From Flavobacteriaceae bacterium (lineage in GTDB: Bacteria; Bacteroidota; Bacteroidia; Flavobacteriales; Flavobacteriaceae), in the NCBI GenBank assembly GCA_030621915.1, contig JAUXGV010000007.1, positions 1 through 34,305 on the forward strand: DNA of 34,305 bases, given 5' to 3'. Shown in pieces: positions 12,825 to 28,053 of this stretch. Each line of letters opens with the position of its first letter. Position 1 is the stretch's first letter. A program made the position numbers and the translations under genes. The notes beneath the pieces were generated by a model. The model saw only the letters and a list, made by a program, of their open reading frames with translations, was not told where the DNA came from and did no database searches.

Positions 12825-13886
12825 TTAGCTGTATTTCAAATTCTCCTTAATAATAATATCAATTGGCAAATAATTGATTTTGTCAGGTTTTTCTTGAAGA
12901 ATGGCAGATTGAAATATTTTCATAACACTCTGATACCCTTGTTCAATAGGATTTTGAGAAATTAAGTAATCAATAGTGTCATTTTTAAGAAAATCAATGT
13001 TTTTGGCAAGAAGATCATAGCCCACCAAAACAATGTCCTGATCAATCGCTTGATCCTTTAAAAACTTAGCAATAATATGAACCCTTGAACCTGTTACAAA
13101 AATCCCCTTAATTTGGGAAAGATCATTGAATACATGCTGTAGTTTTTTATTGATATCAATGGCGTTTAAATCATGAATGTTCATTTCAATGAGACTTCCC
13201 ATTTTATCTTTCTTGGCAAAAAATGATCTAAATCCCTCAGACCTTATGCTTAAATGATTAATGTTATTGTGGTTGGCTAATAAATTTATTATCAGTATAT
13301 TGTCTTTATTTTTAGTTCTATCGAATATCAATTTAGCCGCAACCATGCCACTTTGAACTGAATCGTGACCTACGAATCCAATACTTTTATTTTTTTTCTC
13401 CAAATTGGAATCCAATAGAATAAAAGGAATATTTTTGTCAACCAATTTATCTGCAAATCTTAATGCCTGATCTTTGAAAATAGGAGCTAAAATGACCGCA
13501 TTTGGATTTTCTTGAATCAAAAGTTTTGATTCGGTTTCGAAGGAACTAATATTGGAAATATTGAAAAAATATTTATTGATTTTAACTCCAAATGTTTCAA
13601 GTTCTTCTTCAGCCTTTAGTATTCCAACCAAAGGTTTCTTCCAATAATTGCTATATTGATCATCTTCAGGAATAATTACAGATAAAATAAACTGATTTTT
13701 GGAGGCTAAAGTCTTGGCAATAATATTTGTTTTGTAGCCAAGTTCCTCTATTATTTTAAGCACTTTTTGCCTAGTTTTTTCAGAAACATCACTTCTATTA
13801 TGAAGAACCCTATCAACTGTACCTGCCGATACATTGGCAACTTTTGCAATGTCCTTAATCTTTATGGGTGAATTTTTGTTTTTCAA
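12825..13886 (-). CDS. LacI/GalR family transcriptional regulator
   Basis: This 353-residue protein has the LacI helix-turn-helix at about residues 9-55 (IKDIAKVANVSAGTVDRVLH, then a hinge ending NIIAKTLASK). A periplasmic-binding-protein-like sensor domain follows, with ILSVIIPEDD, NAVILAPIF, FILLDSN, GFVGHDSVQSG, GIFVTGSRVH and IVLVGYDLL. The GTVDRVLHNR form is typical of Bacteroidota members. It diverges from the uxuB operon; two 21-bp operator-like sites lie between them, one over the uxuB promoter and one beside its own. It most likely represses the operon until a sugar or uronate intermediate binds. The effector cannot be told from sequence; mannonate, fructuronate or a 3-keto sugar are all possible. 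Confidence 0.93.
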   Translation of the reverse strand: MKNKNSPIKIKDIAKVANVSAGTVDRVLHNRSDVSEKTRQKVLKIIEELGYKTNIIAKTLASKNQFILSVIIPEDDQYSNYWKKPLVGILKAEEELETFGVKINKYFFNISNISSFETESKLLIQENPNAVILAPIFKDQALRFADKLVDKNIPFILLDSNLEKKNKSIGFVGHDSVQSGMVAAKLIFDRTKNKDNILIINLLANHNNINHLSIRSEGFRSFFAKKDKMGSLIEMNIHDLNAIDINKKLQHVFNDLSQIKGIFVTGSRVHIIAKFLKDQAIDQDIVLVGYDLLAKNIDFLKNDTIDYLISQNPIEQGYQSVMKIFQSAILQEKPDKINYLPIDIIIKENLKYS

Positions 13887-13942: not shown

Positions 13943-13963
13943 ATATTTGTTTGCGCACACGGA
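13943..13963. promoter_or_regulatory. Operator O1 for the LacI-type regulator
   Basis: ATATTTGT, three variable bases, then CGCACACG and RA. The same layout is found at O2 (14060-14080). LacI operators usually carry a central CG within a palindrome, and the GCGC core here (TTGCGCAC) fits. It lies upstream of the regulator's own -7 box, so it may serve autoregulation and cooperative binding with O2. Confidence 0.65.
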
Positions 13964-14066: not shown

Positions 14067-14080
14067 TGCACGCACACGAA
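14060..14080. promoter_or_regulatory. Operator O2 for the LacI-type regulator
   Basis: This site contains the imperfect palindrome TGTGCACGCACA (14065-14076) and matches O1 at 17 or 18 of 21 positions, all outside the three variable bases and one purine. It covers the -7 box and probable start point of the uxuB operon, the classic position for repression. O1 and O2 are 117 bp apart, about 11 helical turns. Confidence 0.7.
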
Positions 14081-14102: not shown

Positions 14103-14918
14103 ATGATAAATAATTTTGACATCTCTGATAAAGTATGTGTAATAACAGGTGGAACGGGTGTTCTTGGTGGAACAATTGCAGAATATTTATTAAATAATAA
14201 TGCAAAAGTTGTAATTTTAGGTTCCAATAAGATTAGATTGGATCAAAAATTAAACATTCTTTCTAAAATTAATGCTGATGTTTTAGGATTTGTTTGTGAT
14301 GTTTTAGATAAAAACCGTGTTGAAATAGTTTGCCAAAATATTATCAATAAATATGGAAAAGTAGATGTTTTATTAAATGCAGCAGGGGGTAATATGCCTG
14401 GAGCTACTATTGCCGAGGATCAAACCATATTTGATTTAAAGTTAGATGATTTTAAAAAAGTTTCGGACTTGAATTTAAACGGAACCTTGATTCCTTCTTT
14501 GGTTTTTGGTAAAGCAATGGCAGATAAGGGTACTGGATGCATTGTGAATTATTCGTCTATGGCTGTATTTAAAACCATCACAAGAGTAGTTGGATATTCT
14601 GCTTCAAAGGCAGCAGTAACAAATTTGACACAATGGATGGCTACAGAATTTGCTTTAAAGTATGGTGGAGGCATTCGTGTTAATGCCATTGCACCCGGTT
14701 TTTTTATCGGAAATCAAAACAGAAGATTATTGATCAATGAAGATGGTTCATACACCGAAAGAGGTCAAAAAGTAATCGCTAATACACCGATGAAAAGATT
14801 TGGTAAAGCAGAAGAATTGAATGGAGTGATACATTGGTTGATTAGTGATACTGCTTCCTTTGTCACAGGAGTTAATGTTCCTATTGATGGCGGATTCAAT
14901 ATCTTTAGTGGTGTTTAA
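14103..14918 (+). CDS. uxuB: D-fructuronate reductase (mannonate oxidoreductase), SDR type
   Basis: This 271-residue protein is a classical short-chain dehydrogenase. The cofactor motif TGGTGVLG is at 15-22, NAAGG at 92-96, catalytic Ser near 151-152, and YSASK with Tyr 165 and Lys 169. Its C-terminus GGFNIFSGV is typical of the SDR-type mannonate oxidoreductases (B. subtilis YjmF kind), which interconvert D-fructuronate and D-mannonate with NAD(H). No signal peptide, so it works in the cytoplasm. It is the first gene of the LacI-controlled operon and shares it with uxuA, which takes the same intermediate. The pairing with uxuA makes this assignment better than for an SDR alone. Confidence 0.85.
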   Translation: MINNFDISDKVCVITGGTGVLGGTIAEYLLNNNAKVVILGSNKIRLDQKLNILSKINADVLGFVCDVLDKNRVEIVCQNIINKYGKVDVLLNAAGGNMPGATIAEDQTIFDLKLDDFKKVSDLNLNGTLIPSLVFGKAMADKGTGCIVNYSSMAVFKTITRVVGYSASKAAVTNLTQWMATEFALKYGGGIRVNAIAPGFFIGNQNRRLLINEDGSYTERGQKVIANTPMKRFGKAEELNGVIHWLISDTASFVTGVNVPIDGGFNIFSGV

Positions 14919-14954
14919 TTTCAAAACAATAATTAATATTTAATAATAGAAAAT

Positions 14955-16355
14955 ATGGTAGATTCGAGACGTTCTTTTTTGAAATCAATAAGTATGTTAG
15001 CGGCAGGGGCTTCTTTGCCCTTAAATTCCTTTGCATTTGGTCTGGGAAAAATCAAATTAAAGATAGTTTTAGTGGGTACAGGAATCAGGGGAACCAGTTT
15101 TTGGGGAAAGCGATTGGTTGATGAGTATTCTGATATATTGGAATTTGTAGGTCTCTGTGATATCAACCCCGGTAGGCTAGCTTATGGAAAAAAATACATA
15201 GGAGCAAAATGTGATACTTTTTTAGATTTTGATAAAATGATTATCGAAACAAAACCTGATTTGGTCATTGTAACTACCAAGGATTCTAATCATCATGAAT
15301 TTATTATCAAAGGGTTGGATTATGGCTGCGATGTATTAACCGAAAAACCTTTGACCATTGATGAAGATAAATGTCAGGATATTTTAGATGCAGAACGCAA
15401 ATCAAATAAAAAACTAATCGTTGGTTTTAATTATAGATGGAGTCCCTATGCAACAAAAGTTAAGGAGTTACTGAAGAAAAACACCATTGGAAAAATCACT
15501 TCCGTAGATTTTCATTGGTATTTAAATACTTACCATGGGGCTTCTTATTTTAGAAGATGGCATGGTTTAAGACAGGAGGGAGGAACTCTTTGGTTACACA
15601 AATCAACACATCATTTTGATCTGTTGAATTGGTGGATTGATTCAGACCCCGCTGAAGTATTTGCCTATGGAGATTTGGAAGTATATGGGTCTAATAGTGA
15701 CATTAGAGGTGAAAATTGCAGAAATTGTGACTTTACGGAATCCTGTAAATTTCATATGGATATTACCAAAAATAAGCGCATGATGGATCTCTATGTGGAT
15801 AACGAACAATATGATGGTTATATAAGAGATAATTGTCTCTTTAGAGACGAGATTAATATCTATGATAAAATGTCAGCTCAAATAAAGTATGCCAACAATA
15901 CAGTTGTGAATTATTCACTGACTACTTATTCACCTTTTGAAGGGTGGCGCGTTTCATTTAATGGTACCGATGGTAGAATAGAGGCTTGGTTGGACATTCC
16001 ATATTTGAAAAATATGAGCATAGATCAAGATAAGTTACACGAATTGGAAATGGATCAGGATTCAAAAATGATGGCACAAGAGCCCATCATTGTTCATAAG
16101 CTCTGGGATAAGCATGATACGGTTGTGGTTGAATACGATAAGAAAGGCCATGGTGGAGGTGACCAACGATTGCAGGACAAGATTTTTGTAAAGGCTGACG
16201 AAAAAGACGTATTTGACAGGGCAGCTGGAGTTAGAGATGGCGCCATGTCTATATTGGTGGGTATAGCGGCTCGTAAAAGCATTGAATCTGGAAACCCAAT
16301 AAGAATACAGGAATTGACAACCTTAGAACCTCGAGCAAAGAGGCTAATTAAATGA
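14955..16355 (+). CDS. Gfo/Idh/MocA oxidoreductase, Tat-exported, with cysteine cluster
   Basis: This 466-residue protein begins with a twin-arginine signal (SRRSFLKS at 4-11, hydrophobic stretch to about 28), so it is folded with its cofactor and exported to the periplasm. The Rossmann motif is VGTGIRG (40-46), and the family motif EKP is at 130-132. A substrate-site histidine pair is at 219-220 (KSTHHFD). Unusually, an inserted cysteine cluster lies at C255, C258, C264 and C294 (CRNCDFTESC), which could bind zinc or form disulfides. It sits 36 nt after uxuB and 8 nt before uxuA, between two uronate enzymes. It probably oxidises a sugar hydroxyl, perhaps at C3; the exact reaction is inferred from the neighbours. 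Confidence 0.85.
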   Translation: MVDSRRSFLKSISMLAAGASLPLNSFAFGLGKIKLKIVLVGTGIRGTSFWGKRLVDEYSDILEFVGLCDINPGRLAYGKKYIGAKCDTFLDFDKMIIETKPDLVIVTTKDSNHHEFIIKGLDYGCDVLTEKPLTIDEDKCQDILDAERKSNKKLIVGFNYRWSPYATKVKELLKKNTIGKITSVDFHWYLNTYHGASYFRRWHGLRQEGGTLWLHKSTHHFDLLNWWIDSDPAEVFAYGDLEVYGSNSDIRGENCRNCDFTESCKFHMDITKNKRMMDLYVDNEQYDGYIRDNCLFRDEINIYDKMSAQIKYANNTVVNYSLTTYSPFEGWRVSFNGTDGRIEAWLDIPYLKNMSIDQDKLHELEMDQDSKMMAQEPIIVHKLWDKHDTVVVEYDKKGHGGGDQRLQDKIFVKADEKDVFDRAAGVRDGAMSILVGIAARKSIESGNPIRIQELTTLEPRAKRLIK

Positions 16356-16363
16356 ATTAGCAA

Positions 16364-17554
16364 ATGAGTACGATAAAAACATGGAGATGGTATGGAGAAC
16401 ACGATAATGTCTCTCTTTCAAATATCAAACAAGCGGGCGTTAGGGATTTGGTAACTTCTTTATTTCATGTGCCTTATGGAGAAGTCTGGGCCAAAGTTGA
16501 TATTATGGCGAAAAAAGATTTCATCGAAAAAAACGGTATGAAATGGCTCGTAACCGAAAGTATTCCGGTACATGAAGATATCAAAACACAAACCGGGAAT
16601 TATTTACAGTACATAGAAAATTATAAAACCAGTATTGAAAATTTAGCCGCTTGTGATATTAATATCGTTTGTTATAATTTCATGCCTATCATGGATTGGA
16701 CTAGAACCGATTTAGACTATACCTTGAATAACGGTTCAAAAACAATTCGATTTGAAAAAGCAGCCTTTACTGCATTTGATCTATTCATATTAAAAAGGAA
16801 AAACGCGGAAAAAGATTATAATGAGTCGGAAATTTCCTCGGCTAAAAATTATTTTGAGAAAAGTAGTCAAGAAGAAATTGAAATTTTAACAAAAAACTTG
16901 ATTGCCAATTTACCAGGTACGGATATGGTGTATACCATGGATCAGTTTCAATCTGAACTTGATAAATACGAACATATTGACCAAGCCAAATTAAAAGAAC
17001 ATTTGTTTTACTTTTTAAGAGAGATTATTCCTGTTGCAGAGAGCGTTGGAGTTAAAATGTGTATCCATCCTGACGATCCCCCATTTTCCTTATTGGGATT
17101 ACCAAGGATTGTTAGCACAGAAAAAGATATTGAAGAGCTTATGAATGCCATTGATAGTCCAAGTAATGGACTTACTTATTGTACGGGTTCATTGGGCGTT
17201 AGAGCGGATAATGACCTACCTCGAATATTTGAACAATTTGCAGGTAAAATTCATTTTATTCATTTAAGAAGTACTTTGAGAAATGAATTGGGCAATTTTC
17301 ATGAAGCAACGCATTTGGGCGGTGACGTAGATATGTACGCTGTGATTCAACAAATTGTTTTGGAACAGGAGAGAAGGAAAAAGGAGGGAAGGAAGGATTT
17401 TGCCATTCCGATGAGGCCTGATCATGGACATCAAATGATGGATGACCTCAACAGACAATATTATCCTGGATATTCTTGTATCGGTAGAATGAAAGGCTTG
17501 GCAGAACTTACGGGACTCGAATATGGTATAGAAAAGTCAATGAATTTAGTATAA
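16364..17554 (+). CDS. uxuA: D-mannonate dehydratase
   Basis: This 396-residue protein has the length and motifs of UxuA. It starts KTWRWYGEHDNVSL, has HVPYGEVW near 35-42, CIHPDDPP around 233-240 (H235, D237, D238), YCTGSLGVR with Cys 273, HLRS near 300, and RPDHGH near the C-terminus. It removes water from D-mannonate to give 2-dehydro-3-deoxy-D-gluconate, using a divalent metal bound by His, Asp and Cys. It is cytoplasmic. Next to uxuB it forms the core of the hexuronate pathway. UxaC (uronate isomerase) and the KDG kinase and aldolase that normally flank these steps are not in the window. Confidence 0.95.
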   Translation: MSTIKTWRWYGEHDNVSLSNIKQAGVRDLVTSLFHVPYGEVWAKVDIMAKKDFIEKNGMKWLVTESIPVHEDIKTQTGNYLQYIENYKTSIENLAACDINIVCYNFMPIMDWTRTDLDYTLNNGSKTIRFEKAAFTAFDLFILKRKNAEKDYNESEISSAKNYFEKSSQEEIEILTKNLIANLPGTDMVYTMDQFQSELDKYEHIDQAKLKEHLFYFLREIIPVAESVGVKMCIHPDDPPFSLLGLPRIVSTEKDIEELMNAIDSPSNGLTYCTGSLGVRADNDLPRIFEQFAGKIHFIHLRSTLRNELGNFHEATHLGGDVDMYAVIQQIVLEQERRKKEGRKDFAIPMRPDHGHQMMDDLNRQYYPGYSCIGRMKGLAELTGLEYGIEKSMNLV

Positions 17555-17587
17555 ACAATAATATAAAAACTTAAAGTATAAAATTAA

Positions 17588-18976
17588 ATGAAGAAATATA
17601 ATAATCATTCAATGTGTATTTTAATTTGTATTTTATTTATTGTTTCATGTAGTGAATCTAAAAAAGATAATACACCTTGGGTAGATTTATTTGATGGTAA
17701 AACTTTAAATGGCTGGCATATTAAAGGTGGTAAAGCAACGTATGAAGTTGAAGATGGAGCTATTGTTGGAACCTCTGTATTAAATACAAAGAACACATTT
17801 TTATGTTCGGATAAAATGTACGGTGACTTTATATTGGAAATTGAATATAAAGTAGATTCAAAATTAAATTCAGGGATTCAAATAAGAAGTAACTCAATCG
17901 AATCTTACCGTGAAGGAGAGGTGCATGGTTATCAAATTGAAATTGATCCCTCTGAAAGAGCTTGGAGTGCAGGTATTTATGAAGAAAGCAGAAGAGGTTG
18001 GTTATATCCCTTGACCGATAATCCTGAGGCTCAAAAAGCTTTCAAACAAAATGATTGGAATACGTATCGGATTGAAGCAATAGGTGATACGATCAAAACA
18101 TGGATCAATGGAGTAGCTGCAACACATTTAATTGATGACATGACCTCCTCCGGATTTATTGGCTTACAGGTTCACAATATTGATGATATAGAAAAAGAAG
18201 GAACTCAAGTGATTTGGAGAACTGTTAAAATCATGACAGAAAATCTTGATCAGTACATGAAAACATCAACCCTTCAAGCCAAAACTACCTTAAACCGTTT
18301 GACGCACCCTGAAAGTGAAGCTGGATGGAAATTATTATGGAACGGAGAAACAACAGAAGGTTGGAGAGGAGCTAAATTAAACGATTTTCCTGAAGCTGGC
18401 TGGGAAATTAAAAATGGGATACTAAGTGTGTTGGCTTCCGGTGGCCATGAATCAACTGCAGGCGGTGATATTGTTTCCCTTGAAAAATATAACAATTTTG
18501 AATTGAAAGTTGATTTTAAAATAACGGAAGGAGCCAATAGCGGCATAAAATATTTTGTAAATACTGATCTCAACAAAGGAGAAGGCTCTTCTATAGGTTT
18601 GGAATTTCAAATATTAGATGATGTAAAACATCCTGATGCTAAGCTTGGAAATCATGATGGAAGTAGAACTATTTCTTCACTGTATGACTTGATTCAAGCG
18701 GATACAAATAAAGTTGTAAATCCAGTTGGGGAATGGAATCAAGCCCGTATCATTTCTAACAACAACCATGTAGAGCATTGGTTAAATAACAGAAAAGTAT
18801 TGGAGTATGAACGCAAAAGTGATGATTACCGGAAACTCGTGGCTGAAAGTAAATATATAGAATGGGAGAATTTTGGAGAAGCAGATTCAGGTCATATATT
18901 AATACAGGATCATGGAGATTTTGTGTCCTTCAGGAATATAAAAATTCGTGAAATTAAAGAAGATGAAAAAAAATAA
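17588..18976 (+). CDS. Lipoprotein with two DUF1080 domains (3-keto-glycoside lyase/hydrolase-like)
   Basis: This 462-residue protein has a lipoprotein signal ending IVSC (Cys 21) and two tandem DUF1080 domains of the LamG/concanavalin-like fold. The first runs about 31-218 (WVDLFDGKTLNGWHIKGG, VHGYQIEIDPSERAWSAGIYEE), the second about 246-455 (WKLLWNGETTEGWRGAKL, GANSGIKYFV, LEFQILDD). Each repeats the fold features seen in the single-domain DUF1080 gene at 21522. Members of this family act on 3-keto sugars or glycosides made by Gfo/Idh oxidoreductases. Here it follows uxuA by 33 nt and overlaps the TIM-barrel gene by 14 nt, so it belongs to the same operon. It is probably on the periplasmic side of an envelope membrane. 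Confidence 0.85.
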   Translation: MKKYNNHSMCILICILFIVSCSESKKDNTPWVDLFDGKTLNGWHIKGGKATYEVEDGAIVGTSVLNTKNTFLCSDKMYGDFILEIEYKVDSKLNSGIQIRSNSIESYREGEVHGYQIEIDPSERAWSAGIYEESRRGWLYPLTDNPEAQKAFKQNDWNTYRIEAIGDTIKTWINGVAATHLIDDMTSSGFIGLQVHNIDDIEKEGTQVIWRTVKIMTENLDQYMKTSTLQAKTTLNRLTHPESEAGWKLLWNGETTEGWRGAKLNDFPEAGWEIKNGILSVLASGGHESTAGGDIVSLEKYNNFELKVDFKITEGANSGIKYFVNTDLNKGEGSSIGLEFQILDDVKHPDAKLGNHDGSRTISSLYDLIQADTNKVVNPVGEWNQARIISNNNHVEHWLNNRKVLEYERKSDDYRKLVAESKYIEWENFGEADSGHILIQDHGDFVSFRNIKIREIKEDEKK

Positions 18977-19826
18977 ATCGACAATAAATAGAAGGAATTT
19001 CATCAAAAATTCAGCTCTGGGAACAGCAGGAATTATTAGTACTTCTTTTCCTATTATAGCTCAGGGCTCAATTAGGTTTACTGATTCAGGGGATTTATCA
19101 AATATAAAATTGGGTGTTGCTTCTTATTCGCTGCGCAATTTTTCTACAGAAAAAGCACTCGATATGACCTTGCGATGTGGTGTCAATAGAATTTCTTTTA
19201 AAAGCATGCACCTACCTCTTGATTCTGGAAAGGAGACCATAAAAAAAACGGTGAAGCTTTGTAGGGATAAAGGTGTTGAATTGTATGGTGGCGGCGTAAT
19301 TTATATGAAAACCAAAGAAGCTGTTGATCAGGCATTTGCCTATGCCCAAGCAGCGAAAATGAAAATAATTATTGGTGTTCCCAATCATGAATTGTTGAAT
19401 TATGTGGAAACTAAAGTGAAAGAAACCAATATCAAATTGGCTATTCACAATCATGGACCCGGTGATAAGTTATATCCAAGTGCAGAAAGTGCTTATGTTA
19501 AAATAAAAAATATGGATGCCCGAATGGGACTCTGTATCGATATTGGTCATAGCATTCGAATTGGAAGAAATCCAAGCAAGGATTTTGAGTCTTTTTTTGA
19601 TCGTGTCTTCGATGTACATGTAAAAGATGTTACAAAGGCAGCTGCAGATGGTAAAACATGTATAGTAGGCAAAGGTGTAATAGATATTCCGGGCTTTTTA
19701 GAAACAGTAGTAAAATTGAATTATGAAGAAACTCTGGCTCTTGAATATGAAGCAGAAGCATCCGATCCTTTACCGGGTATGATGGAATCTTTAGGTTATG
19801 TTAAAGGCGTATTGGCAACTAATTAA
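18963..19826 (+). CDS. TIM-barrel sugar isomerase/epimerase-like protein, Tat-exported
   Basis: The frame extends back to a GTG at 18948, but the ATG at 18963, preceded by a purine-rich AAAGAAG, gives 287 residues with a twin-arginine signal (INRRNFIKNSALG) and is preferred. The mature part is the xylose-isomerase/AP-endonuclease-2 type barrel: LGVASYSLRNFS, then HNHG, CIDIGHSI, DVHVKD and ALEYEAEA. Acidic and His residues in these phrases form the metal site. In 3-keto-sugar operons of Bacteroidota such barrels act as lyase or hydratase partners of Gfo/Idh and DUF1080 enzymes. It overlaps the DUF1080 gene by 14 nt and precedes a Gfo/Idh gene by 17 nt. Confidence 0.85.
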   Translation: MKKNKSTINRRNFIKNSALGTAGIISTSFPIIAQGSIRFTDSGDLSNIKLGVASYSLRNFSTEKALDMTLRCGVNRISFKSMHLPLDSGKETIKKTVKLCRDKGVELYGGGVIYMKTKEAVDQAFAYAQAAKMKIIIGVPNHELLNYVETKVKETNIKLAIHNHGPGDKLYPSAESAYVKIKNMDARMGLCIDIGHSIRIGRNPSKDFESFFDRVFDVHVKDVTKAAADGKTCIVGKGVIDIPGFLETVVKLNYEETLALEYEAEASDPLPGMMESLGYVKGVLATN

Positions 19827-19843
19827 ATTATAAAATAAAAAAC

Positions 19844-21187
19844 ATGAAATCTAACAGAAGAAATTTTATTAAAAAGGCTTCGGCAGGAGCTGCAGGAATT
19901 GCCTTGACTGGAAGTATCAATGCCATGTCTGCCAAAAGTTATTCAAATATTATTGGAGCCAATGATCGTATTCATGTGGCGCTGCAAGGATTGGGAAGAC
20001 GATATGGAGGTTATATGGATCCAATCATAGATAAAAAAAATAATGTTAGATTGTTGTATCTATGCGATGTCATGCAGAGTCAGCGTGAAAAGGCTGCAGC
20101 GAATTTCGCAAAAAGAATCAATTATAAACCGGCCTTGGAAAATGACATTCGAAAAATAATGGATGATCAAAAAGTTGATGCCATTTTTATGGCTACTCCT
20201 GATCACTGGCATACTCCAGGTGCTTGTATGGCTATGAAGGCTGGAAAACATGTTTATTTAGAGAAACCATGTAGCCATAATATGCAGGAAAATGAATGGG
20301 TGGTTGCTTTTCAAAAGAAGTATAACAAAGTCGTTCAGATGGGAAATCAACAACGATCATCTCTCGAGTCTAATCAGGTTATTAAAGATATCCATAATGG
20401 AATAATTGGTAGGACTTATAAAGCAACAGCCTTTTATATCAATACGAGGGGTGAAGTTTCTGTTCAAGAAAAAGCTACTCCACCTGAAGGATTGGATTGG
20501 GATCTTTTTCAAGGCCCATCACCAAGAAAAGATTACACACACAACACATGGGACTATAATTGGCATTGGTATGGTTGGGATTTTGGAACAGCGGAAATGG
20601 GCAACAATGCAACACATGAATTGGATATTGCCCGATGGGCATTGGGCGTTGAATTTCCTGAACATGTAAATGTGAGGTCAGGTAAAAATCAATTTTTAAA
20701 CGATGGTTGGGAAATGTATGACTCAATGGAAGCCAGATTTTCTTTTTCGGATGGACAAGTTATTGAGTGGGATGGGCAAAGTAGAAATGGATATGCTAAA
20801 TATGGTAAAGGTAGAGGAACCGTAGTTTATGGGTCAGAAGGTTCAGCATTTATTGATAGAAGTGGATATGAAATATTTGACCTAAAGGGAAAATCTGTTA
20901 AAAACAGTAAATCAAATGGTGCTGAAGGAGGACTTGCACTAGGAGGGGGAGGAAATCTAACAACGAGGCATGCAATTAATTTTTTCGAAACAATTCGCGG
21001 CAATGAGGCATTGACTTCGCCCATTGAACAAGGTGCAGTTAGTCAGGCAATGACTCATTATGCAAACATTGCTTCAAGAATTGGAAAATCTTTTGAGATT
21101 GATGAAAATTCAGGTAGAATTTTTGATCGAGAAGCTATGAAATTATGGTCACGTGAGTATGAAGCAGGTTGGGAACCTAAGTTGTAA
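19844..21187 (+). CDS. Gfo/Idh/MocA oxidoreductase, Tat-exported
   Basis: This 447-residue protein has a twin-arginine signal (SNRRNFIKKASAGAAGIA) with a hydrophobic region up to about residue 30. A Rossmann fold follows with QGLGRRYGG (48-56), ATPDHWH (117-123) and the EKP motif at 140-142, then the C-terminal alpha/beta domain with ATHELDIARWALG. It is of the exported Gfo/Idh type that keeps a tightly bound NAD(P). It lacks the cysteine cluster of the homologue at 14955. As last gene of the operon it may oxidise the substrate at C3 or re-reduce the keto product. The substrate is not readable from sequence. It ends before the repeat-rich gap at 21188-21521. Confidence 0.85.
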   Translation: MKSNRRNFIKKASAGAAGIALTGSINAMSAKSYSNIIGANDRIHVALQGLGRRYGGYMDPIIDKKNNVRLLYLCDVMQSQREKAAANFAKRINYKPALENDIRKIMDDQKVDAIFMATPDHWHTPGACMAMKAGKHVYLEKPCSHNMQENEWVVAFQKKYNKVVQMGNQQRSSLESNQVIKDIHNGIIGRTYKATAFYINTRGEVSVQEKATPPEGLDWDLFQGPSPRKDYTHNTWDYNWHWYGWDFGTAEMGNNATHELDIARWALGVEFPEHVNVRSGKNQFLNDGWEMYDSMEARFSFSDGQVIEWDGQSRNGYAKYGKGRGTVVYGSEGSAFIDRSGYEIFDLKGKSVKNSKSNGAEGGLALGGGGNLTTRHAINFFETIRGNEALTSPIEQGAVSQAMTHYANIASRIGKSFEIDENSGRIFDREAMKLWSREYEAGWEPKL

Positions 21188-21240
21188 TAATATTATTGGA
21201 TATAATTCTAACGAGATCATTCTCTATATAAGATAATTGC

Positions 21241-21446
21241 CCCTTGAGCTGGGCCACCTATGGTAGGAGGGATCATAAGGGTGTTTTCCTCTTAAGTCAA
21301 TCTGCCTTAGCCATGGGGGTGTTGGTCCCTTCAGGACATGAGAAAAACAAAATATAATTTATTCTGAAGGCTTCAAACGAGGCTCAATTGAGGTGTTATT
21401 CCATAGGAGACTACAAACAAATCTCATTTGGGGTGTTGTAAATTTG
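21241..21446. repeat. Repeat-rich intergenic region with four GGTGTT motifs
   Basis: This fills much of the 334-nt gap between two operons. GGGTGTT occurs at 21279-21285, 21317-21323 and 21431-21437, and AGGTGTT at 21391-21397. Spacings are 38, 74 and 40 bp, near a period of 37-40. The region is also richer in G and C than its surroundings. Small inverted elements are present: CCTATGG against CCATAGG (21257-21263 and about 21401-21407), the palindrome CTCAATTGAG (21383-21392) and CAAAT-CTC-ATTTG (21418-21430). There are no coding frames of note. It may be a degenerate cluster of intergenic palindromic repeats or a structured RNA; it does not look like a CRISPR array. Confidence 0.5.
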
Positions 21447-21448
21447 GA

Positions 21449-21521: not shown

Positions 21522-22253
21522 ATGAAATATTTTGTAGTTCAAAAACTTATAAAACTCTTTTCTATATCAATAATTTTTCTTGTGTTTGTTTTTGTTGGAT
21601 GCAAGCAGTCTGTAAAAAAATCAGATTGGCAGGAAGAGATATTATCACTTTTTAATGGGAAAAATTTAGATGGCTGGAAGGGTGATTCCAGTATTTGGTC
21701 GGTTGAGGAAGGCTGTATTGTCGGCAGGACTACTTCAGATAAGCCCATTGAACAAAACACTTTTTTAATTCATAATACTTCCTTTTCTGACTTTGAACTG
21801 AGTTTTCAATACAAAATTATTGGAGGCAACAGCGGTGTTCAATATAGGGCGAAAGTATTGGATAAAGAATTGTTTATCGTTGGAGGCTATCAGGCCGATA
21901 TGGAGGCCGGAAATAATTATTCAGGAATTCTTTATGAAGAAAAAGGTAGAGGAATATTGGCACTGCGTGGTGAACAGGTCAGACTTGACTCAATAGGTAT
22001 AAAGACGGTAACTAAATTTGCTAATTCGGAAACTATTGAATCAAGGATTCAAAAGGAACAATGGAATGAGTATCTGATTGTTGCTAATGGGAATCATTTG
22101 CAACATTTTATCAATGGAGTAAAAAGTGTTGATGTTGTTGACGATGAGGTGGATAAAAAAGCTTCTTCCGGAATTATTGCACTTCAGGTGCATAAAGGCC
22201 CGGAAATGACAGTTTATTATAAGGATTTACATCTAAAACTTATTAAAAACTAA
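21522..22253 (+). CDS. DUF1080 lipoprotein (3-keto-sugar lyase/hydrolase-like)
   Basis: This 243-residue protein has a long lipoprotein signal ending FVGC (Cys 27) and one DUF1080 domain from about residue 40 to the end: ILSLFNGKNLDGWKG, WSVEEGCIVGRT, FSDFELSFQYKI, GGNSGVQYRAK, YQADMEAGNNYSG, HFINGVKSVDVVD. It is a single-domain relative of the double protein at 17588. DUF1080 enzymes act on 3-keto glycosides made by Gfo/Idh partners, and a Gfo/Idh gene lies two genes downstream. It starts a new transcription unit behind its own promoter and is followed after 9 nt by a sulfatase. Confidence 0.9.
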   Translation: MKYFVVQKLIKLFSISIIFLVFVFVGCKQSVKKSDWQEEILSLFNGKNLDGWKGDSSIWSVEEGCIVGRTTSDKPIEQNTFLIHNTSFSDFELSFQYKIIGGNSGVQYRAKVLDKELFIVGGYQADMEAGNNYSGILYEEKGRGILALRGEQVRLDSIGIKTVTKFANSETIESRIQKEQWNEYLIVANGNHLQHFINGVKSVDVVDDEVDKKASSGIIALQVHKGPEMTVYYKDLHLKLIKN

Positions 22254-22262: not shown

Positions 22263-23834
22263 ATGTTCAAACGAAAATTAAAATTATTTTTTTTCGGGTC
22301 CTTATTGTTGATCTTTAATTGTGTATCCTCTTGTCAAAAGGAAGAAAATAAAAACAAGCATTCACAAAATAATCAAAATCAGGGCGACCAGCCCAATGTC
22401 ATACTTATTTTAGCTGATGATATGGGATGGTCTGACCTAGGATGTTATGGTAGTGAAGTTCATACTCCAAATCTGGATTTGTTGGCTTCGGAAGGAATCA
22501 GGTTTACAAACATGTATAATACTTCCAAATGCTTTCCTTCTCGTGCTTCCTTACTTACAGGATTATATTCGCAGCAAATAGGCTATCACAAGAGTTATAA
22601 ACAGCCAATGAACAATGCCATTACTTTGGGTGAATTGTTCAAAAAGGCAGGCTATACCACCATGTGGTCCGGAAAACATCACAGTTCAGAATTACCTACC
22701 AAAAGAGGCTTTGATCACTATAGTGGATTATTTGAAGGTGCGAGTAATCATTTTAATCCAGGGAAACAAAGAAAAGGTGAGGGGCAGCCTGCTCAAAAAA
22801 GACCCGACAGACCCTGGGTGATTGATGGTGAAATAATACAACCCTACACACCTTCAAAAGATTTTTATACCACGGATGCTTTTACTGATTACGCCTTGGA
22901 ATGGTTGAATCAAAGGCCAACAGATCAACCGTTTTTTTTATATATGTCTTATACGGCTCCTCATGATCCCTTAATGGCTTGGCCAGAGGATATTCAAAAG
23001 TATCGGGGTAAGTATATGGAAGGATATAAAAAGGTGAGAAACGCAAGATTTAAAAAACAAAAGGCATTAGGCCTTATCGCCTCTGATTACCCGTTGTCAC
23101 AAGCTACATTTCAAAATTGGGATGAATTATCGGATGTTCAAAAAGATCAGGAAGATTTAAAAATGGCTGTTTATAGTGCTATGATTGATAGGATGGATCA
23201 AAATATTGGAAGATTGTTATCCAAATTGGACGAAATGAAGCTCCGAGAAAGCACCTTGATATTATTTCTATCCGATAACGGAGCATCTTCAGAAGTGGTC
23301 AACTTAGAAGGTGGTAACGGAGAAATTGGCAGCCTTGGAAGATGGACATCGTTGGGAGGTGACTGGGCCAATGTATCTAATGTGCCCCTGCGCCTATTTA
23401 AAAATTTTAGCCATGAAGGTGGAATTAAAACACCTTTAATTGTGAATTGGCCAAATGGAATTAAAGAAAAAAATAAAATAGTCGATACGCCTCTTCATTT
23501 AATTGATTTGATGCCAACTTTTGCAGCTATAATTAATGAAGATTATCCAGTTGAATTCAACAATCAAAGTATCAAACCTTTAGACGGGATCAATTTTCTG
23601 CCAATTCTAAGGGGACAGAAAGTGAAAAGGGGAAAACCGTTGTTCTGGCAATGGCAACATGGTAAGGCAATTCGCGATGGAGATTGGAAATTAGTGGCCT
23701 TTAAGGATAACTGGACCTTATACAATTTAAAATTGGATCCTGTTGAAGCCAATGATTTATCATTGTCTCATCCAGAGAAATTTCTCCAATTGAAAAACCA
23801 ATACGACGCTTGGTCAAAACAAATGGGATTGTAA
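22263..23834 (+). CDS. Arylsulfatase (S1 type, Cys-type formylglycine), lipoprotein
   Basis: This 523-residue protein has a lipoprotein signal ending VSSC (Cys 24) and a polar linker rich in Asn, Gln and Lys. The sulfatase features are ADDMGWSD (D52, D53), the formylglycine motif CFPSR at 90-94, SGKHH (K138, H140), TAPHDP (H234) and FLSDNGAS (D338, N339). The length is usual for family S1. It removes sulfate groups in the periplasm or at the surface. It follows the DUF1080 gene by 9 nt and precedes a Gfo/Idh gene by 42 nt, so desulfation is wired into the same unit. Substrate not readable. Confidence 0.95.
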   Translation: MFKRKLKLFFFGSLLLIFNCVSSCQKEENKNKHSQNNQNQGDQPNVILILADDMGWSDLGCYGSEVHTPNLDLLASEGIRFTNMYNTSKCFPSRASLLTGLYSQQIGYHKSYKQPMNNAITLGELFKKAGYTTMWSGKHHSSELPTKRGFDHYSGLFEGASNHFNPGKQRKGEGQPAQKRPDRPWVIDGEIIQPYTPSKDFYTTDAFTDYALEWLNQRPTDQPFFLYMSYTAPHDPLMAWPEDIQKYRGKYMEGYKKVRNARFKKQKALGLIASDYPLSQATFQNWDELSDVQKDQEDLKMAVYSAMIDRMDQNIGRLLSKLDEMKLRESTLILFLSDNGASSEVVNLEGGNGEIGSLGRWTSLGGDWANVSNVPLRLFKNFSHEGGIKTPLIVNWPNGIKEKNKIVDTPLHLIDLMPTFAAIINEDYPVEFNNQSIKPLDGINFLPILRGQKVKRGKPLFWQWQHGKAIRDGDWKLVAFKDNWTLYNLKLDPVEANDLSLSHPEKFLQLKNQYDAWSKQMGL

Positions 23835-23876
23835 TTACACGATACTATTTAAAATAATTGATGAATCAAAAATCAC

Positions 23877-24890
23877 ATGAAAAAGACAATAAAAACGGGA
23901 GTGCTTTCTTATGGAATGTCAGGTAAATTATTTCAATGCCCCTTTTTAAATGAACATGCTGGATTTGAATTGTATGCCATTGTAGAGCGGTCAAAAAAGG
24001 AAGCACACATTATTTATCCAAAAATCATAAGTTACATTTCGGTGGATGAAATATTATTGGATCCTGAAGTTGAATTGATAATTGTCAATACGCCAACTAA
24101 TACCCATTTTGAATTTGCATTAAAAGCAATTCATGCAAATAAACATGTATTGGTTGAAAAAGCCTTTACAGTTACTTCTTCACAAGCAAAAAAACTATTT
24201 CGAGAGGCCAAAAAAAATAACATTTTCATTCTTCCCTATCAAAATAGACGATATGATAGCGATTTTCTATCTGTAAAGAAAGTGCTGGATTCCGGGAATT
24301 TAGGGAAATTGGTAGAGGTTCATTTTCGATATGACAGGTATAGGTATGGCATTGGTCCGAAAGTAGCTAAAGAAACTGAAATTCCTGGAAGTGGATTACT
24401 TTACGATTTAGGCCCTCATTTATTAGATATGGTAATTGCTCTTTTTGGCAAACCTATATCATGGTACAAAAGTTTGGGTTATTTTCGACCAAAAACTAAA
24501 GTTGATGATTATGCCCAGATTCATTTAATATATCCTAATCAATTACAAGTATTTATTACCATGAGTATGTTGGTTACAGAAGCACAGCCTTCTTTCGTTC
24601 TCCATGGAACAAAAGGTTCATTTATCAGGGATAGAAGTGATATTCAGGAAAAACAATTGTTAGAAGGTATTCTACCTGGAAATCCAACATATGGTATTGA
24701 AGATACTGATAAATATGGAACCCTAACCACCATATCATCGGACGGAATTAAAAACCATCAAAAAATAACTTCTGATAGATCTACATATATTCATGTGTTT
24801 GAAGATGTTTATCAGACAATAAGAGCAGGGAAGCCATATCCCGTTTCTGAAGAAGATATATTAAAACAACTGGAAATTTTGGAATCCTAA
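23877..24890 (+). CDS. Gfo/Idh/MocA oxidoreductase, cytoplasmic
   Basis: This 337-residue protein has no signal peptide and starts with its Rossmann strand (KTGVLSYGMSGKLFQCPFL). Other family features are NTPTNTHFEFALKAI, LVEKAFTVT (EKA in place of EKP), QNRRYDSDFLSVKKVLDSG and GLLYDLGPHLLDM. This form, with the short N-terminus and the QNRRYDSDF phrase, resembles the cytoplasmic group that includes scyllo-inositol dehydrogenases and YdgJ-like enzymes. It could finish the pathway by reducing an imported keto sugar. The link to the upstream sulfatase (42 nt gap) suggests co-expression. Substrate is inference. Confidence 0.85.
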   Translation: MKKTIKTGVLSYGMSGKLFQCPFLNEHAGFELYAIVERSKKEAHIIYPKIISYISVDEILLDPEVELIIVNTPTNTHFEFALKAIHANKHVLVEKAFTVTSSQAKKLFREAKKNNIFILPYQNRRYDSDFLSVKKVLDSGNLGKLVEVHFRYDRYRYGIGPKVAKETEIPGSGLLYDLGPHLLDMVIALFGKPISWYKSLGYFRPKTKVDDYAQIHLIYPNQLQVFITMSMLVTEAQPSFVLHGTKGSFIRDRSDIQEKQLLEGILPGNPTYGIEDTDKYGTLTTISSDGIKNHQKITSDRSTYIHVFEDVYQTIRAGKPYPVSEEDILKQLEILES

Positions 24891-24896
24891 TTTTAT

Positions 24897-24927
24897 GTTG
24901 AATTTAAAGGTAAACACACCATATTTG
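24897..24927 (+). promoter_or_regulatory. Candidate promoter of the SMP-30-type gene
   Basis: GTTG (24897-24900) and CATATTTG (24920-24927) are spaced 19 nt apart. The -7 box differs from TAnnTTTG at the first base only. The start codon is 21 nt downstream, so the lactonase gene may be transcribed both from here and from the upstream unit. Confidence 0.5.
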
Positions 24928-24947
24928 TAGTGTAAAACCAAACCATT

Positions 24948-25847
24948 ATGCTAAAAATAAAATTGTTTGTATTTGTTTTTTTTTCCTTTACCACAGCCGC
25001 AATTGTGAGCCAAAATAAAAAAAACAAGCTATTTTCAAAAAATAAAAAAATTCAATTGGCTGGAACCGGTTTTATTTTTACCGAAGGACCAGCAGTAGCT
25101 CCTGACGGTCGTGTTTATTTTACCGATCAACCCAATGATAAAATTCATATTTGGGATCAAAAAGCCGGCATTTCTCTTTACAAAGCAGGAACAGGTCGAT
25201 CAAATGGTTTGTATTTTAATGCTAAGAATCAATTGGTGGCCTGTGCTTATGAAAAAAATCAACTGGCTTATTTTGATAAAAATAAGCAACTTGTAGTATT
25301 GCATGAGGACTTTGACAATGAACATTTGAATGCTCCAAATGATTTGTGGATTGATCCAAATGGGGGTATTTATTTTTCTGATCCCTATTACCATCGTAAA
25401 TGGTGGCCCATAGATCACAGGCAAGAACAAGATATTCAAGGTGTGTATTATTTGAACCCCGATGGTAATATTTTTAGGGTAATAGATGATTTCGAAAGAC
25501 CTAATGGACTAATTGGTACACCAGATGGTAAAACCTTATATGTTGCGGATATTAAAGCCGATAAAATTTGGATATATGATATCCAAAAGGATGGAAGTTT
25601 GGCTAATAAAACTTTTTTTGCACCAAAGGGTAGCGATGGAATGACTATAGATAATAAAGGAAATGTTTATTTGACATCTGGTAAAGTATGGGTTTATAAT
25701 CCCAATGGTGAATTGCTCAGGGAAATTGAAGTACCTGAAAACCCATCAAATGTTTGCTTTGGAGGCAAGAAAAGGAATATACTTTTTATCACTGCCAGAA
25801 AATCTGTCTATACGCTTAAAATGAAGGTCAAAGGTGTAGATAATTAA
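24948..25847 (+). CDS. SMP-30/gluconolactonase-like protein, exported
   Basis: This 299-residue protein has a signal peptide (MLKIKLFVFVFFSFTTAAIV, cut near residue 21) and a six-bladed propeller of the SMP-30/gluconolactonase family. Key phrases are FTEGPAVAPDGRVYFTD with metal ligand E46, HLNAPNDLWIDPNGGIYFSD with an Asn ligand, RPNGLIGTPDGKTLYVAD with an Asp ligand, and DGMTIDNKGNVYL. Such enzymes open sugar lactones made by oxidation of sugars. In this locus it could hydrolyse a lactone formed by one of the oxidoreductases, in the periplasm. The exact lactone is inference. Confidence 0.88.
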   Translation: MLKIKLFVFVFFSFTTAAIVSQNKKNKLFSKNKKIQLAGTGFIFTEGPAVAPDGRVYFTDQPNDKIHIWDQKAGISLYKAGTGRSNGLYFNAKNQLVACAYEKNQLAYFDKNKQLVVLHEDFDNEHLNAPNDLWIDPNGGIYFSDPYYHRKWWPIDHRQEQDIQGVYYLNPDGNIFRVIDDFERPNGLIGTPDGKTLYVADIKADKIWIYDIQKDGSLANKTFFAPKGSDGMTIDNKGNVYLTSGKVWVYNPNGELLREIEVPENPSNVCFGGKKRNILFITARKSVYTLKMKVKGVDN

Positions 25848-25923
25848 TGCTATTTGAGTATATCCAGAATTGTCCAATGGTTATTTGAGAATTAATTTGT
25901 CAATGTACAATTAACTAGTAAAA

Positions 25924-25958
25924 TTTATTTGTGTTCATGATTTACTATAAACACAAAT
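25924..25958. promoter_or_regulatory. Inverted repeat upstream of the HEAT-repeat sulfatase
   Basis: ATTTGTGTT (25927-25935) and AACACAAAT (25950-25958) form a perfect 9-bp inverted repeat with a 14-nt gap. The left arm overlaps TTTATTTG (25924-25931), a near match to the -7 box; TTTG at 25896-25899 could be its -33 but is 24 nt away. It may be an operator or a hairpin in the long leader (about 120 nt to the start codon). The rest of the 234-nt gap shows nothing further. Confidence 0.45.
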
Positions 25959-26081
25959 TTTCATTAAAATGCAATTCATAAATATTAATTAAAATTCTTC
26001 AATAGTATTTTTTAAAATATGAGGTTATATTTACTGATTAATTGCTAAAAAAATTTAAACACTTAAAAAGAAGAAATCAAT

Positions 26082-27935
26082 ATGGAGAGAATAATTAAAA
26101 TGGAATTGATTATAAATTTGATTTCTGTATTTTTTTTAATCCTGATTCCCTTTACTGTTGAATCTCAATCACTGACCGTCGAAAAACCGAATATTTTATG
26201 GATCGTTAGTGAGGACAATAGTCCGTTTTTTGGTTGTTATGGTGATGAATTTGCCACAACACCCACTTTTGATAAACTGGCAACAGAAGGTGTTTTATAC
26301 GAAAATGCTTTCGCTAATGCCCCGGTATGTGCTCCCGCAAGATCGACGATAATTACCGGAATGTATCCGCCATCTATGGGTACACAAAATATGCGAAGTA
26401 AATATCCAACCCCTGAATTTATCATGTTTTTCCCCCAATATCTGAGAGAAGCAGGATATTATACAAGCAACAATTCAAAGGAAGATTATAATATGATAAA
26501 GCCTGACGGAGTTTGGGATGAATCATCTAAAAATGCTCATTATAAAAACAGAAAAGAAGGGCAACCTTTTTTTGCCATATTCAACCTTGGCGTAAGTCAT
26601 GAAAGTTCTATTCATAAAAGTATTCCTAATGAAGAATTAAGACACGATCCCTTAAAGGTGATACTACCTCCATACCATCCTGATACTCCGGAAATGCGTC
26701 ATGATTGGACACAGTATTACGATAAAATTGAAGATTTAGACACACAAGTTGCTGCGATTCTTCAAGAACTAGAAGATTCAGGATTTGCAGATAATACCAT
26801 TGTGGCTTATTATGGCGATCATGGAGGTGTGATAGCCCGCAGCAAACGATTTGTTTATGAATCCGGTACAAGAGTACCCATGATATGGAGATTTCCTGAA
26901 AAATATAGCCATTTGGCACCCGGAAAGCCCAATACTAGAACAGATCGATTAGTTAGTTTTGTTGATTTGGCACCAACCATCTTAAGTTTAGTAGGAATTG
27001 ATATCCCGAAGTATATGCAGGGAAAAGCCTTTTTAGGTAATCAGCAGGCAGCAGTACCAAAATATGTTCACTTGTTCAGAGGTCGTATGGATGAACGAAT
27101 TGATATGGTGAGAGCGGTTAGAGATCAGCAATATCGATATATCAAGAATTATATGCCGCATAGAATATATGGCCAATATATAGAATATTTATGGAGGGCA
27201 CCATCTTGTAAATCGTGGGAAGATGCCTATCTGGCGGGGGAATGTAATGAGGCTCAAAGTGTTTTCTGGGAGCAAAAACCTTCTGAGGAGCTTTATGATG
27301 TTACGGTTGACCCTTGGGAAGTAAATAATCTGGCAAATGATCCGAAATATCATGATGTGATGATTCGGATGAGAACAGAAAATAAACGTTGGATGCTTGA
27401 AATTCACGATACAGGTTTGATGCCAGAGGGAGAATTATCTACAAGAAATATGGATCAACTTTCATTTGATTTTGTGCATTCAACCAATTATCCTGTTGAA
27501 AAAATTCTACATGCTGCCACAATATCAACCATGAGAGATAAAGCCAAGCTCGATCAAATCATTGAATTCATGAATGATGGCAATGCCACAGTGAGGTATT
27601 GGGGCGCAACGGGCTGTTTGATTTTAGGTACAGATGCTGGATCAGCAACAAACAATCTTATAGAACTGCTTAATGATGAAAACCCCGATGTTCGGATTAC
27701 AGCGGCGGAAGCCTTGTGTAATTTAGGCATGTCGGATGTGGCTACACCTGTATTAATAGCAGCGTTAAAAGAGGAAAATGTAATGGTGCGTGTTCATGCA
27801 TTCAATAGCTTGGAAACCTTAGGCGGAACTGTCGCGATGGAAGCCATCCCCATGGCTAAGCAAGTCATTGAAAATCGAACTGGTAGAGATTATGATATTA
27901 GAGCTGCACAGCGTTTGGTTGAATTGTATGATTAA
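26082..27935 (+). CDS. Sulfatase (S1 type) with C-terminal HEAT repeats, exported
   Basis: This 617-residue protein has a signal peptide (to about residue 29) and a sulfatase domain: SEDNSPFFGCYGDE (D45, N46), the formylglycine motif CAPAR at 83-87, and YYGDHGG with the metal Asp and Asn/His site. From about residue 480 to the end it carries PBS-type HEAT repeats: LDQIIEFMNDGNATVRYWGA, NLIELLNDENPDVRITAAEAL, LIAALKEENVMVRVHAFNSL. The EDNSP start matches the heparan-N-sulfatase-like branch of S1. HEAT tails of this kind occur in several Bacteroidota and Planctomycetes sulfatases and probably serve protein-protein or glycan contact. The start at 26082 has a purine-rich AAGAAG upstream; 26100 is an alternative. 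The CE15 gene follows by 118 nt. Confidence 0.95.
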   Translation: MERIIKMELIINLISVFFLILIPFTVESQSLTVEKPNILWIVSEDNSPFFGCYGDEFATTPTFDKLATEGVLYENAFANAPVCAPARSTIITGMYPPSMGTQNMRSKYPTPEFIMFFPQYLREAGYYTSNNSKEDYNMIKPDGVWDESSKNAHYKNRKEGQPFFAIFNLGVSHESSIHKSIPNEELRHDPLKVILPPYHPDTPEMRHDWTQYYDKIEDLDTQVAAILQELEDSGFADNTIVAYYGDHGGVIARSKRFVYESGTRVPMIWRFPEKYSHLAPGKPNTRTDRLVSFVDLAPTILSLVGIDIPKYMQGKAFLGNQQAAVPKYVHLFRGRMDERIDMVRAVRDQQYRYIKNYMPHRIYGQYIEYLWRAPSCKSWEDAYLAGECNEAQSVFWEQKPSEELYDVTVDPWEVNNLANDPKYHDVMIRMRTENKRWMLEIHDTGLMPEGELSTRNMDQLSFDFVHSTNYPVEKILHAATISTMRDKAKLDQIIEFMNDGNATVRYWGATGCLILGTDAGSATNNLIELLNDENPDVRITAAEALCNLGMSDVATPVLIAALKEENVMVRVHAFNSLETLGGTVAMEAIPMAKQVIENRTGRDYDIRAAQRLVELYD

Positions 27936-28053
27936 ATTCTCTCTCTCTGAGGTGGCTCCATATTTGTTTCATTAGAATTTAAAAAAAATAGAAGCATATA
28001 ATAGAACAATATAAAATTTATGAACCGATATCAAAACCATAAAAATTATTAAG

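Follow-up and report, generated by a model that had tools for sequence, protein, structure and literature searches.

The window considered here (the whole 34,305-nucleotide stretch of DNA that was analysed, from a Flavobacteriaceae bacterium) carries six plus-strand genes in a row, encoding UxuB, Gfo1, UxuA, a protein with two DUF1080 domains (DUFx2), a TIM-barrel protein (TIM) and Gfo2 (Table 1). From uxuB to the Gfo2 gene the intergenic gaps are 36, 8, 33, −14 and 17 bases, with the ATG at 18963 taken as the start of TIM, overlapping the DUFx2 stop (the listed open reading frame runs from a GTG at 18948). The next gene lies 334 bases past the end of Gfo2 (21187), and this single DUF1080 gene possibly belongs to a second transcription unit. 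A preliminary description of the locus had placed hexuronate enzymes and a set of exported proteins in one operon; every gene it named is present at its coordinates, and all are on the plus strand.

Table 1 Features of the uxuBA locus and its surroundings in the window.
Feature	Coordinates	Strand	Basis or remark
LacI-family regulator	12825..13886	-	Pfam LacI + Peripla_BP_4; divergent from uxuB
Operator-like core CGCACACG, copy 1	13954..13961	+	CGYACACG match in LacI-uxuB gap
Operator-like core CGCACACG, copy 2	14071..14078	+	CGYACACG match in LacI-uxuB gap
UxuB, SDR-type D-mannonate oxidoreductase (fructuronate reductase)	14103..14918	+	PRK08277
Gfo1, Tat-type Gfo/Idh oxidoreductase	14955..16355	+	Pfam PF01408/PF02894
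UxuA, D-mannonate dehydratase	16364..17554	+	TIGR00695
DUFx2, lipoprotein-like, two DUF1080 / 3-keto-disaccharide-hydrolase domains	17588..18976	+	PF06439
TIM, Tat-type AP_endonuc_2-fold TIM barrel, candidate eliminase or hydratase	18963..19826	+	PF01261
Gfo2, Tat-type Gfo/Idh oxidoreductase, nearest glycoside-3-dehydrogenase kind	19844..21187	+	NF058561, PDB 8tdf/8tdh
Single DUF1080 gene	21522..22253	+	PF06439 1e-38; 334 bases past Gfo2
Downstream neighbourhood	22263..29319	+	sulfatases, Gfo, lactonase-type, esterase-type genes
Sulfatase	start 22263	+	downstream neighbourhood
Gfo without signal	start 23877	+	downstream neighbourhood
SMP-30/gluconolactonase-type gene	start 24948	+	downstream neighbourhood
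Sulfatase, PDB 9bba S1_8C best	start 26082	+	downstream neighbourhood
Glucuronyl-esterase-type gene	start 28054	+	downstream neighbourhood

The two cytoplasmic enzymes bear out the identities first given to them, since both score above curated cut-offs: UxuB reached 351 bits against NCBIfam PRK08277 'D-mannonate oxidoreductase' (cut-off 281) and UxuA 550.2 bits against TIGR00695 (cut-off 199.55). Glucuronate isomerase (UxaC) is required upstream of UxuB. A search for it with PF02614 gave no match in the bin, which is 77% complete. A further contig of the same bin (C14) starts inside a KdgK-like gene and continues with Eda-DctPQM-UxaB, and KdgK follows UxaC in two related loci, L141 and L136.

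The other four proteins had been described as exported types, and their N-termini carry the corresponding motifs, from which export itself is predicted. The translations of Gfo1 and Gfo2 contain the twin-arginine motifs SRRSFLK and NRRNFIK, respectively, TIM likewise has NRRNFIK, and DUFx2 has the lipobox-like FIVSC. A motif count found RRx[FLIM] within the first 40 residues in 78/84 Gfo1, 35/37 Gfo2 and 10/16 TIM rows; by a crude test, only 14 of 38 DUFx2 relatives had a lipobox-like motif.

Judged by homology, Gfo2 and the DUF1080 tandem are related to 3-keto-route proteins. The best PDB matches of Gfo2 were 8tdf and 8tdh, and it scored 152.5 bits against NF058561 (BT_2158_fam), compared with 33.7 bits for Gfo1, both below that family's cut-off of 750. 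DUFx2 matched PF06439 in two stretches (1.2e-87) and PDB 4jqt over residues 30-457 (546 bits). The latter structure was deposited only as a 'putative glycosyl hydrolase'. The two DUFx2 domains are 26% alike over 159 residues and differ in their conserved residues. Besides 4jqt, the best-matching stretch in PDB hits to DUFx2 was the second domain, with the exception of 4qhz in one search and in all cases in a further search. A Gfo2-like gene (>100 bits) lay within 600 bases of DUFx2 in 34/38 cases.

Gfo1 is distinguished by residues that are invariant in 83/83 rows, namely Cys 255, 258, 264 and 294, the Lys131 of an EKP motif, and H215, which we take to occupy an active-site motif position held by Asp in many family members. 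Its AlphaFold model (mean pLDDT 57) was too poor for a structure search. TIM belongs to fold family PF01261 and has invariant H167, H169, D198, H201, D222, H224, E266 and E268 among 17 rows; it matched PDB 3lmz with 202 bits, and its three PDB matches bear names without proven function. In other genomes TIM homologs stand beside Gfo2-like or DUF1080 genes (L175, L176, L178, L179 and L180).

The association of these genes with hexuronate catabolism recurs. In a sample of 277 Bacteroidota genomes, DUFx2 was found in 52, UxuA in 70 and both in 39 (Fisher P 1.4e-17, kinship uncorrected), a co-occurrence that may reflect a common polysaccharide-eating life style; 13 of the 52 DUFx2 genomes had no UxuA found. 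Proximity is more specific: in 7 of the 38 genomes other than that of the window with both genes, the pair lay within 20 kb (all 7 within 12 kb), where 0.44 was expected (Poisson P 4e-7). The recurring clusters combine DUFx2, a Gfo2-like gene and UxuA, to which UxaC, KdgK, Eda and a TRAP transporter are frequently added, and no unassigned gene separates the hexuronate genes from the module in L134, L141, L158, L161 and L192/L193 (in L192/L193 UxuA is on the opposite strand). On a tree of 39 DUFx2 rows, partly selected for the uxuA link, the state 'near uxuA' took 8 changes, at least 5 of them by strong branches, against a shuffled mean of 13.2; for 21 of the 39 rows, the stretch retrieved contained no uxuA up to 12 kb away.

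Gfo1 and TIM follow a different distribution. UxuA was present in 47 of 50 Gfo1-bearing genomes (50 of the 80 Gfo1 loci were used, and 40 of 62 UxuA match rows were fetched) compared with 70/277 in the sample, and DUFx2 and Gfo2 occurred together in 10 of the 40 UxuA loci from these genomes; the ORF caller was crude and recovered UxuA itself in 39 of the 40 fetched loci. UxuA was nearby in only 1 of 80 Gfo1 loci (42/80 full length), and TIM was present in 0 of 40 UxuA loci. On these counts, and because the L134 cluster does without Gfo1, a fixed four-protein module that includes Gfo1 is rejected, as is TIM as an obligate part. The recurring unit is therefore the DUF1080 tandem with Gfo2 and not all four proteins. 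Presence of Gfo1 in uxu clusters took 3 changes on its tree (the window, L091 and L192/L193). In the order sample, DUFx2 or Gfo2 above 300 bits appeared in none of the 39 fetched UxuA loci, with a pair in G138 just outside the stretch.

These distributions bear on whether the 3-keto genes merely dropped into the uxu operon of this genome, with no functional tie. The exact six-gene set and order occurred in no other locus examined, and the cluster with the most similar UxuA (L134, 73% identical) lacks both Gfo1 and TIM, as chance would allow. Yet the module recurs beside hexuronate genes in several lineages, in differing gene orders, and the intergenic gaps are short. Chance juxtaposition is disfavoured because of this recurrence, and we consider it highly improbable. 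The mixing of both gene sets is thus not an accident of one genome.

Similar copies of the LacI gene adjoin uxuBA at the corresponding position in L134 (500 bits) and L141 (482 bits). The word CGYACACG occurs only twice in the window, both times in the 216-base LacI-uxuB gap, and likewise twice in the LacI-uxuB gaps of L134 and of L141; each of the window's two sites departs at 2 positions from the 14-base palindrome seen in relatives. In L140 the word CGTTAACGTACACG precedes both DUFx2-Gfo2 and LacI-uxuBA. The candidate operator (at most 1 mismatch) was found before DUFx2 in only 1/38 cases and before Gfo1 in 2/82, and the longer operator motif (at most 2 mismatches) gave 3 matches in the whole window against a mean of 1.46, a count reached by 21/100 shuffles. 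Taken with the recurring gene position, the L140 word supports a tie between exported-type Gfo/DUF1080 genes and hexuronate genes. The link drawn in the preliminary description is thereby supported, with chemistry and substrate presumed; the exact six-gene set is not supported.

In Bacteroides, the BT2156-BT2160 region brings together Gfo/Idh oxidoreductases, a DUF1080 protein and a TIM barrel, and the known substrates of its oxidation/elimination/hydration route are neutral glycosides or broad. The window resembles that region in these components and in the nearness of Gfo2 to 8tdf/8tdh, but has a tandem DUF1080 and hexuronate genes in the operon. In Agrobacterium, the GlycDH-OGE-HYD-Gfo operon is reported to act on aryl glucosides by oxidation, elimination, (preliminary) hydration and reduction, and includes, besides the Gfo reductase, two proteins that carry a sugar phosphate isomerase annotation (PMC10628242); from that annotation we read the elimination and hydration proteins as TIM-fold. 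Unlike the window, this four-enzyme operon has neither DUF1080 nor uronate genes in the available text of the report (PMC10628242). PDB 8tdi, 'P2B11 Glucuronide-3-dehydrogenase', is by name a Gfo-type enzyme for C3 oxidation of glucuronides, which gives the 3-keto step on such compounds a chemical precedent. It is distant from Gfo1 (44 bits in one search, 57 bits and 13th in another); Gfo2 alone gave no match to it, and it was absent from the best 60 of 86 matches for the Gfo2 profile. Neither protein is close enough kin to be taken as its ortholog.

UxuB, UxuA and a LacI-family regulator are shared with the uxuRBA / UxaC-UxuB-UxuA-KdgK-Eda hexuronate pathway of Bacteroidota, whereas exported Gfo/DUF1080 genes are not among the genes given in the available parts of its descriptions (PMC3878776, PMC5306329). 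PUL 8 of Maribacter sp. MAR_2009_72, expressed on arabinogalactan and adjoined by a sugar-acid operon, holds a mannonate dehydratase and a functionally unassigned Gfo/Idh/MocA protein; DUF1080 is unmentioned in the available text (PMC11036162). For Thermogutta, DUF1080 and glucuronate use are both discussed and, in the text available, are not placed in one operon (PMC5673643). Among the matches listed in literature searches, no title or abstract connected uxu genes with either DUF1080 or 3-keto uronates.

Our data suggest that the operon serves the use of glycoside-bound uronic acids, and that hexuronate import would be supplied by a periplasmic uronidase working through oxidation, elimination and hydration (probability roughly 0.57). 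Gfo2, once exported, would oxidise C3 of the sugar ring; the DUF1080 tandem (here with TIM) would eliminate the aglycone or next sugar and rehydrate the keto-glycal; and a Gfo would reduce the 3-keto uronate back, thereby recycling the Tat-carried cofactor. The free hexuronate would enter through a TRAP system (encoded in relatives and, in this genome, on a separate contig) and pass through UxaC, UxuB, UxuA, KdgK and Eda. Export of the module is suggested by motifs and its 3-keto chemistry by homology; a uronide is the presumed substrate, and the two DUF1080 domains, like Gfo1 and Gfo2, are presumed to divide tasks between them.

Alternatively, the module may cut neutral linkages (e.g., glucosyl or galactosyl) of a uronate-containing heteropolysaccharide, the operon being common to one polymer and the uronate not made by the module. 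Gfo2 is nearest the BT_2158/8tdf kind, the DUFx2 rows without uxuA nearby are numerous, and the window goes on with sulfatases and lactonase-type, glucuronyl-esterase-type and GH20-like genes. In the available text, the DUF1080/oxidoreductase systems that have so far been reported or put forward act on neutral glycosides, with 3-ketotrehalose and 3'-ketolactose among the compounds named (PMC9007349). Against this, the modules of L134, L141, L158, L161 and L192/L193 are embedded in genes for uronate uptake and catabolism, uninterrupted by any other gene, and we regard a neutral-linkage role as rather unlikely.

A third reading dispenses with glycoside cutting: the proteins would remodel uronates that are free or unusual while these are in the periplasm, by C3 epimerisation or removal of 3- or 4-substituents, and so make them acceptable to UxaC. 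Clusters that contain UxaC and a TRAP importer but no depolymerase would fit, as would the His of Gfo1 in place of the Asp of many family members. A lone epimerase, though, would not need both DUF1080 and TIM, which makes remodelling improbable. Moreover, DUF1080 and TIM-type proteins of reported function act on 3-keto glycosides in the available accounts (PMC9007349, PMC10628242).

A stronger form of the uronidase reading is possible but doubtful: scattered Bacteroidota lineages may possess an alternative to uronyl hydrolases and lyases, namely a two-protein, cofactor-recycling uronidase wired to hexuronate import and catabolism, the two unlike DUF1080 domains of one exported protein performing elimination and hydration and one Tat-exported Gfo both oxidation and reduction, with Gfo1 and the TIM barrel added in this lineage. 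If periplasmic uronide cleavage is borne out, a variety of Bacteroidota would have a dedicated non-hydrolytic release of hexuronates from glycosides that escapes annotations of uronic-acid degradation built on CAZymes, and the tandem-DUF1080 family (PDB 4jqt) would gain a function. Compact clusters such as L141 present two putatively exported proteins and one candidate substrate class.

The polymer itself could not be assigned from the window's sulfatases; their nearest PDB relatives are not decisive, one being an S1_8C sulfatase at 324 bits and the other an arylsulfatase at 281 bits. The glucuronyl-esterase-type gene presumably belongs to CE15.

Our analysis confirmed the preliminary description of the operon, in which uxuB and uxuA were said to be interlaced with an exported 3-keto module, as to gene positions and identities (window genes are named from Pfam and NCBIfam). 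The six genes encode, in order, UxuB, Gfo1, UxuA, DUFx2 (a tandem-DUF1080 lipoprotein-like protein), TIM (a Tat-type PF01261 TIM barrel) and Gfo2, with spacings of 36, 8, 33, -14 and 17 bases; Gfo1 and Gfo2 are Tat-type Gfo/Idh oxidoreductases. The contig (C236) belongs to a 2.93 Mb bin of 262 contigs that is 77% complete; to judge by its relatives, the organism is Flavobacteriaceae-like.

Features of the window and of other loci discussed in the text
Feature	Position	Remark
LacI gene	12825-13886	divergent from UxuB operon
Six-gene operon	14103-21187	+ strand
Gfo1	14955-16355
Gfo2	19844-21187
Gap ahead of single DUF1080 gene	21188-21521	30-base repeat, its 77% copy lying 40 bases further; each ends in GGTGTT
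Single DUF1080 gene		334 bases past Gfo2
Sulfatase, Gfo without signal, SMP-30/gluconolactonase-type gene		downstream of single DUF1080 gene, in this order
Second sulfatase, glucuronyl-esterase-type gene, GH20-like gene		next
Gene with TonB-receptor plug domain		begins at end of window
Hexuronate genes, contig C14 of own genome	L212 1-5794	KdgK-like (cut by contig start), Eda, DctP, DctQ, DctM, UxaB-like
Second, distant UxuA-family protein, own genome	C65:302-1141 (L040)	two-piece match to PF03786 (lowest E 5.4e-36)
Gfo1 gene row, Croceivirga radicis	L113 9980-21601	ends in UxuB relative (349 bits) at locus edge

By analogy, DUFx2, Gfo2 and TIM could be parts of a route of oxidation, elimination, hydration and reduction. 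Such a route is reported for Agrobacterium, with the evidence for hydration called preliminary (PMC10628242), and DUF1080 proteins are reported or proposed to act on 3-ketotrehalose and 3'-ketolactose (PMC9007349). Since the module is set among genes of hexuronate uptake and catabolism, with none intervening, the simplest reading we infer is that the exported-type proteins would free hexuronate from uronides in the periplasm. A mannonate dehydratase and a Gfo-family protein without assigned function are reported as expressed in the proteome of a Maribacter on arabinogalactan (PMC11036162). The enzymes and the route are of already known kinds; a search of a limited literature collection found no link of the DUF1080 tandem to hexuronate operons, and this tie appears to be the new element.

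A scan of named genomes for Gfo1 kept 80 of 416 relatives, whose loci (38 of them shortened by contig ends) included UxuA once, in L091. This locus holds UxuB, LacI, Gfo1, DUFx2, Gfo2, UxuA, UxaC, three TRAP transporter genes and a KdgK-like kinase, with GH2 and two PF05426 alginate-lyase-family genes upstream. UxuA was found in 47 of the 50 Gfo1-bearing genomes examined, and the 40 UxuA loci fetched from such genomes contained Gfo2 in 11 cases and DUFx2 in 10. The neatest of these is L141, where a single strand after LacI reads UxuB-UxuA-DUFx2-Gfo2-UxaC-KdgK-Eda-DctP-DctQ-DctM; L134, whose UxuA is 73% identical to that of the window, reads UxuB-UxuA-DUFx2-Gfo2-another Gfo-UxaC-DctPQM-UxaB. 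L192 and L193, from genomes of the window's phylum that are not labelled as its class, carry UxuB-like, Eda, KdgK, UxaC and Gfo1, then UxuA on the opposite strand, then Gfo2 and DUFx2. (In relatives, UxaC and TRAP names rest on Pfam matches of the L091 copies and Eda on the L136 copy; KdgK, of the PfkB family, and UxaB, of the mannitol dehydrogenase family, are inferred names.) Membership of uxu clusters required three changes on the Gfo1 tree.

Across a sample of 277 Bacteroidota genomes, UxuA occurred in 70, DUFx2 in 52 and both in 39 (Fisher 1.4e-17, uncorrected for kinship and without a control family), a co-occurrence that may in part stem from life style. The two genes lay within 20 kb of each other in 7 of the 38 other genomes having both (expected 0.44), at distances of 2.7 to 11.7 kb. 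Among 246 genomes of the window's own order, all 9 with DUFx2 were also among the 44 with UxuA, but neither DUFx2 nor Gfo2 exceeded 300 bits in any of the 39 UxuA loci fetched there; in one genome (G138) the pair is 10.7 kb apart, beyond the fetched stretch. The tie of exported-type Gfo/DUF1080 genes to uxu genes is therefore recurrent, yet a minority arrangement. On the DUFx2 tree, the label "near uxuA" took 8 changes (shuffled mean 13.2), and strong branches account for no fewer than 5 of them.

Putative operator words mark the LacI-uxuB gap. CGYACACG occurs twice there in the window, as in L134 and L141, and nowhere else in the window. In relatives, the palindrome CGTGTRCGYACACG or CGTTAACGYACACG, with at most one mismatch, lies ahead of LacI in 17 of 23 cases and ahead of UxuB in 10 of 69 (overlapping counts, as both genes often flank one common gap); the rate in 2302 upstream regions of other genes was 0.48%. 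In L140 the word CGTTAACGTACACG stands closely 5' of DUFx2-Gfo2 and again directly 5' of LacI, in the LacI-uxuB gap. Since the palindrome precedes 1 of 38 DUFx2 and 2 of 82 Gfo1 genes, the majority of solo copies are probably regulated in another way.

UxaC had no match in the 77%-complete bin. Contig C14 opens inside its KdgK-like gene, and UxaC directly precedes KdgK in L141 and L136, which makes it likely that the gene was lost where a contig ends. Distant UxuA-family proteins like the one on C65 also occur in G079 and G109.

DUFx2 aligns to PDB 4jqt over residues 30-457. Its two domains are 26% alike (motifs YEE-RRGW versus QILDD-SLYD); domain 2 is of the type best matched by single-domain PDB proteins and domain 1 of a different type. 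Gfo2 is closest to PDB 8tdf/8tdh and to the BT_2158 model, with a score under the model cut-off. In Gfo1, Cys 255, 258, 264 and 294 are invariant in 83 of 83 aligned rows, which suggests a structural metal site, and all 83 rows carry His215 in the active-site motif, a position that many family members fill with Asp. Gfo1 lies near a protein of 1110-1135 residues in L041 and L043 and likewise in 17 loci of the L054-L133 series, among them L075, L086, L088 and L101; the start of this protein in L041 and L043 seems to resemble SecA. In these loci Gfo1 seems to be a lone gene, remote from sugar genes.
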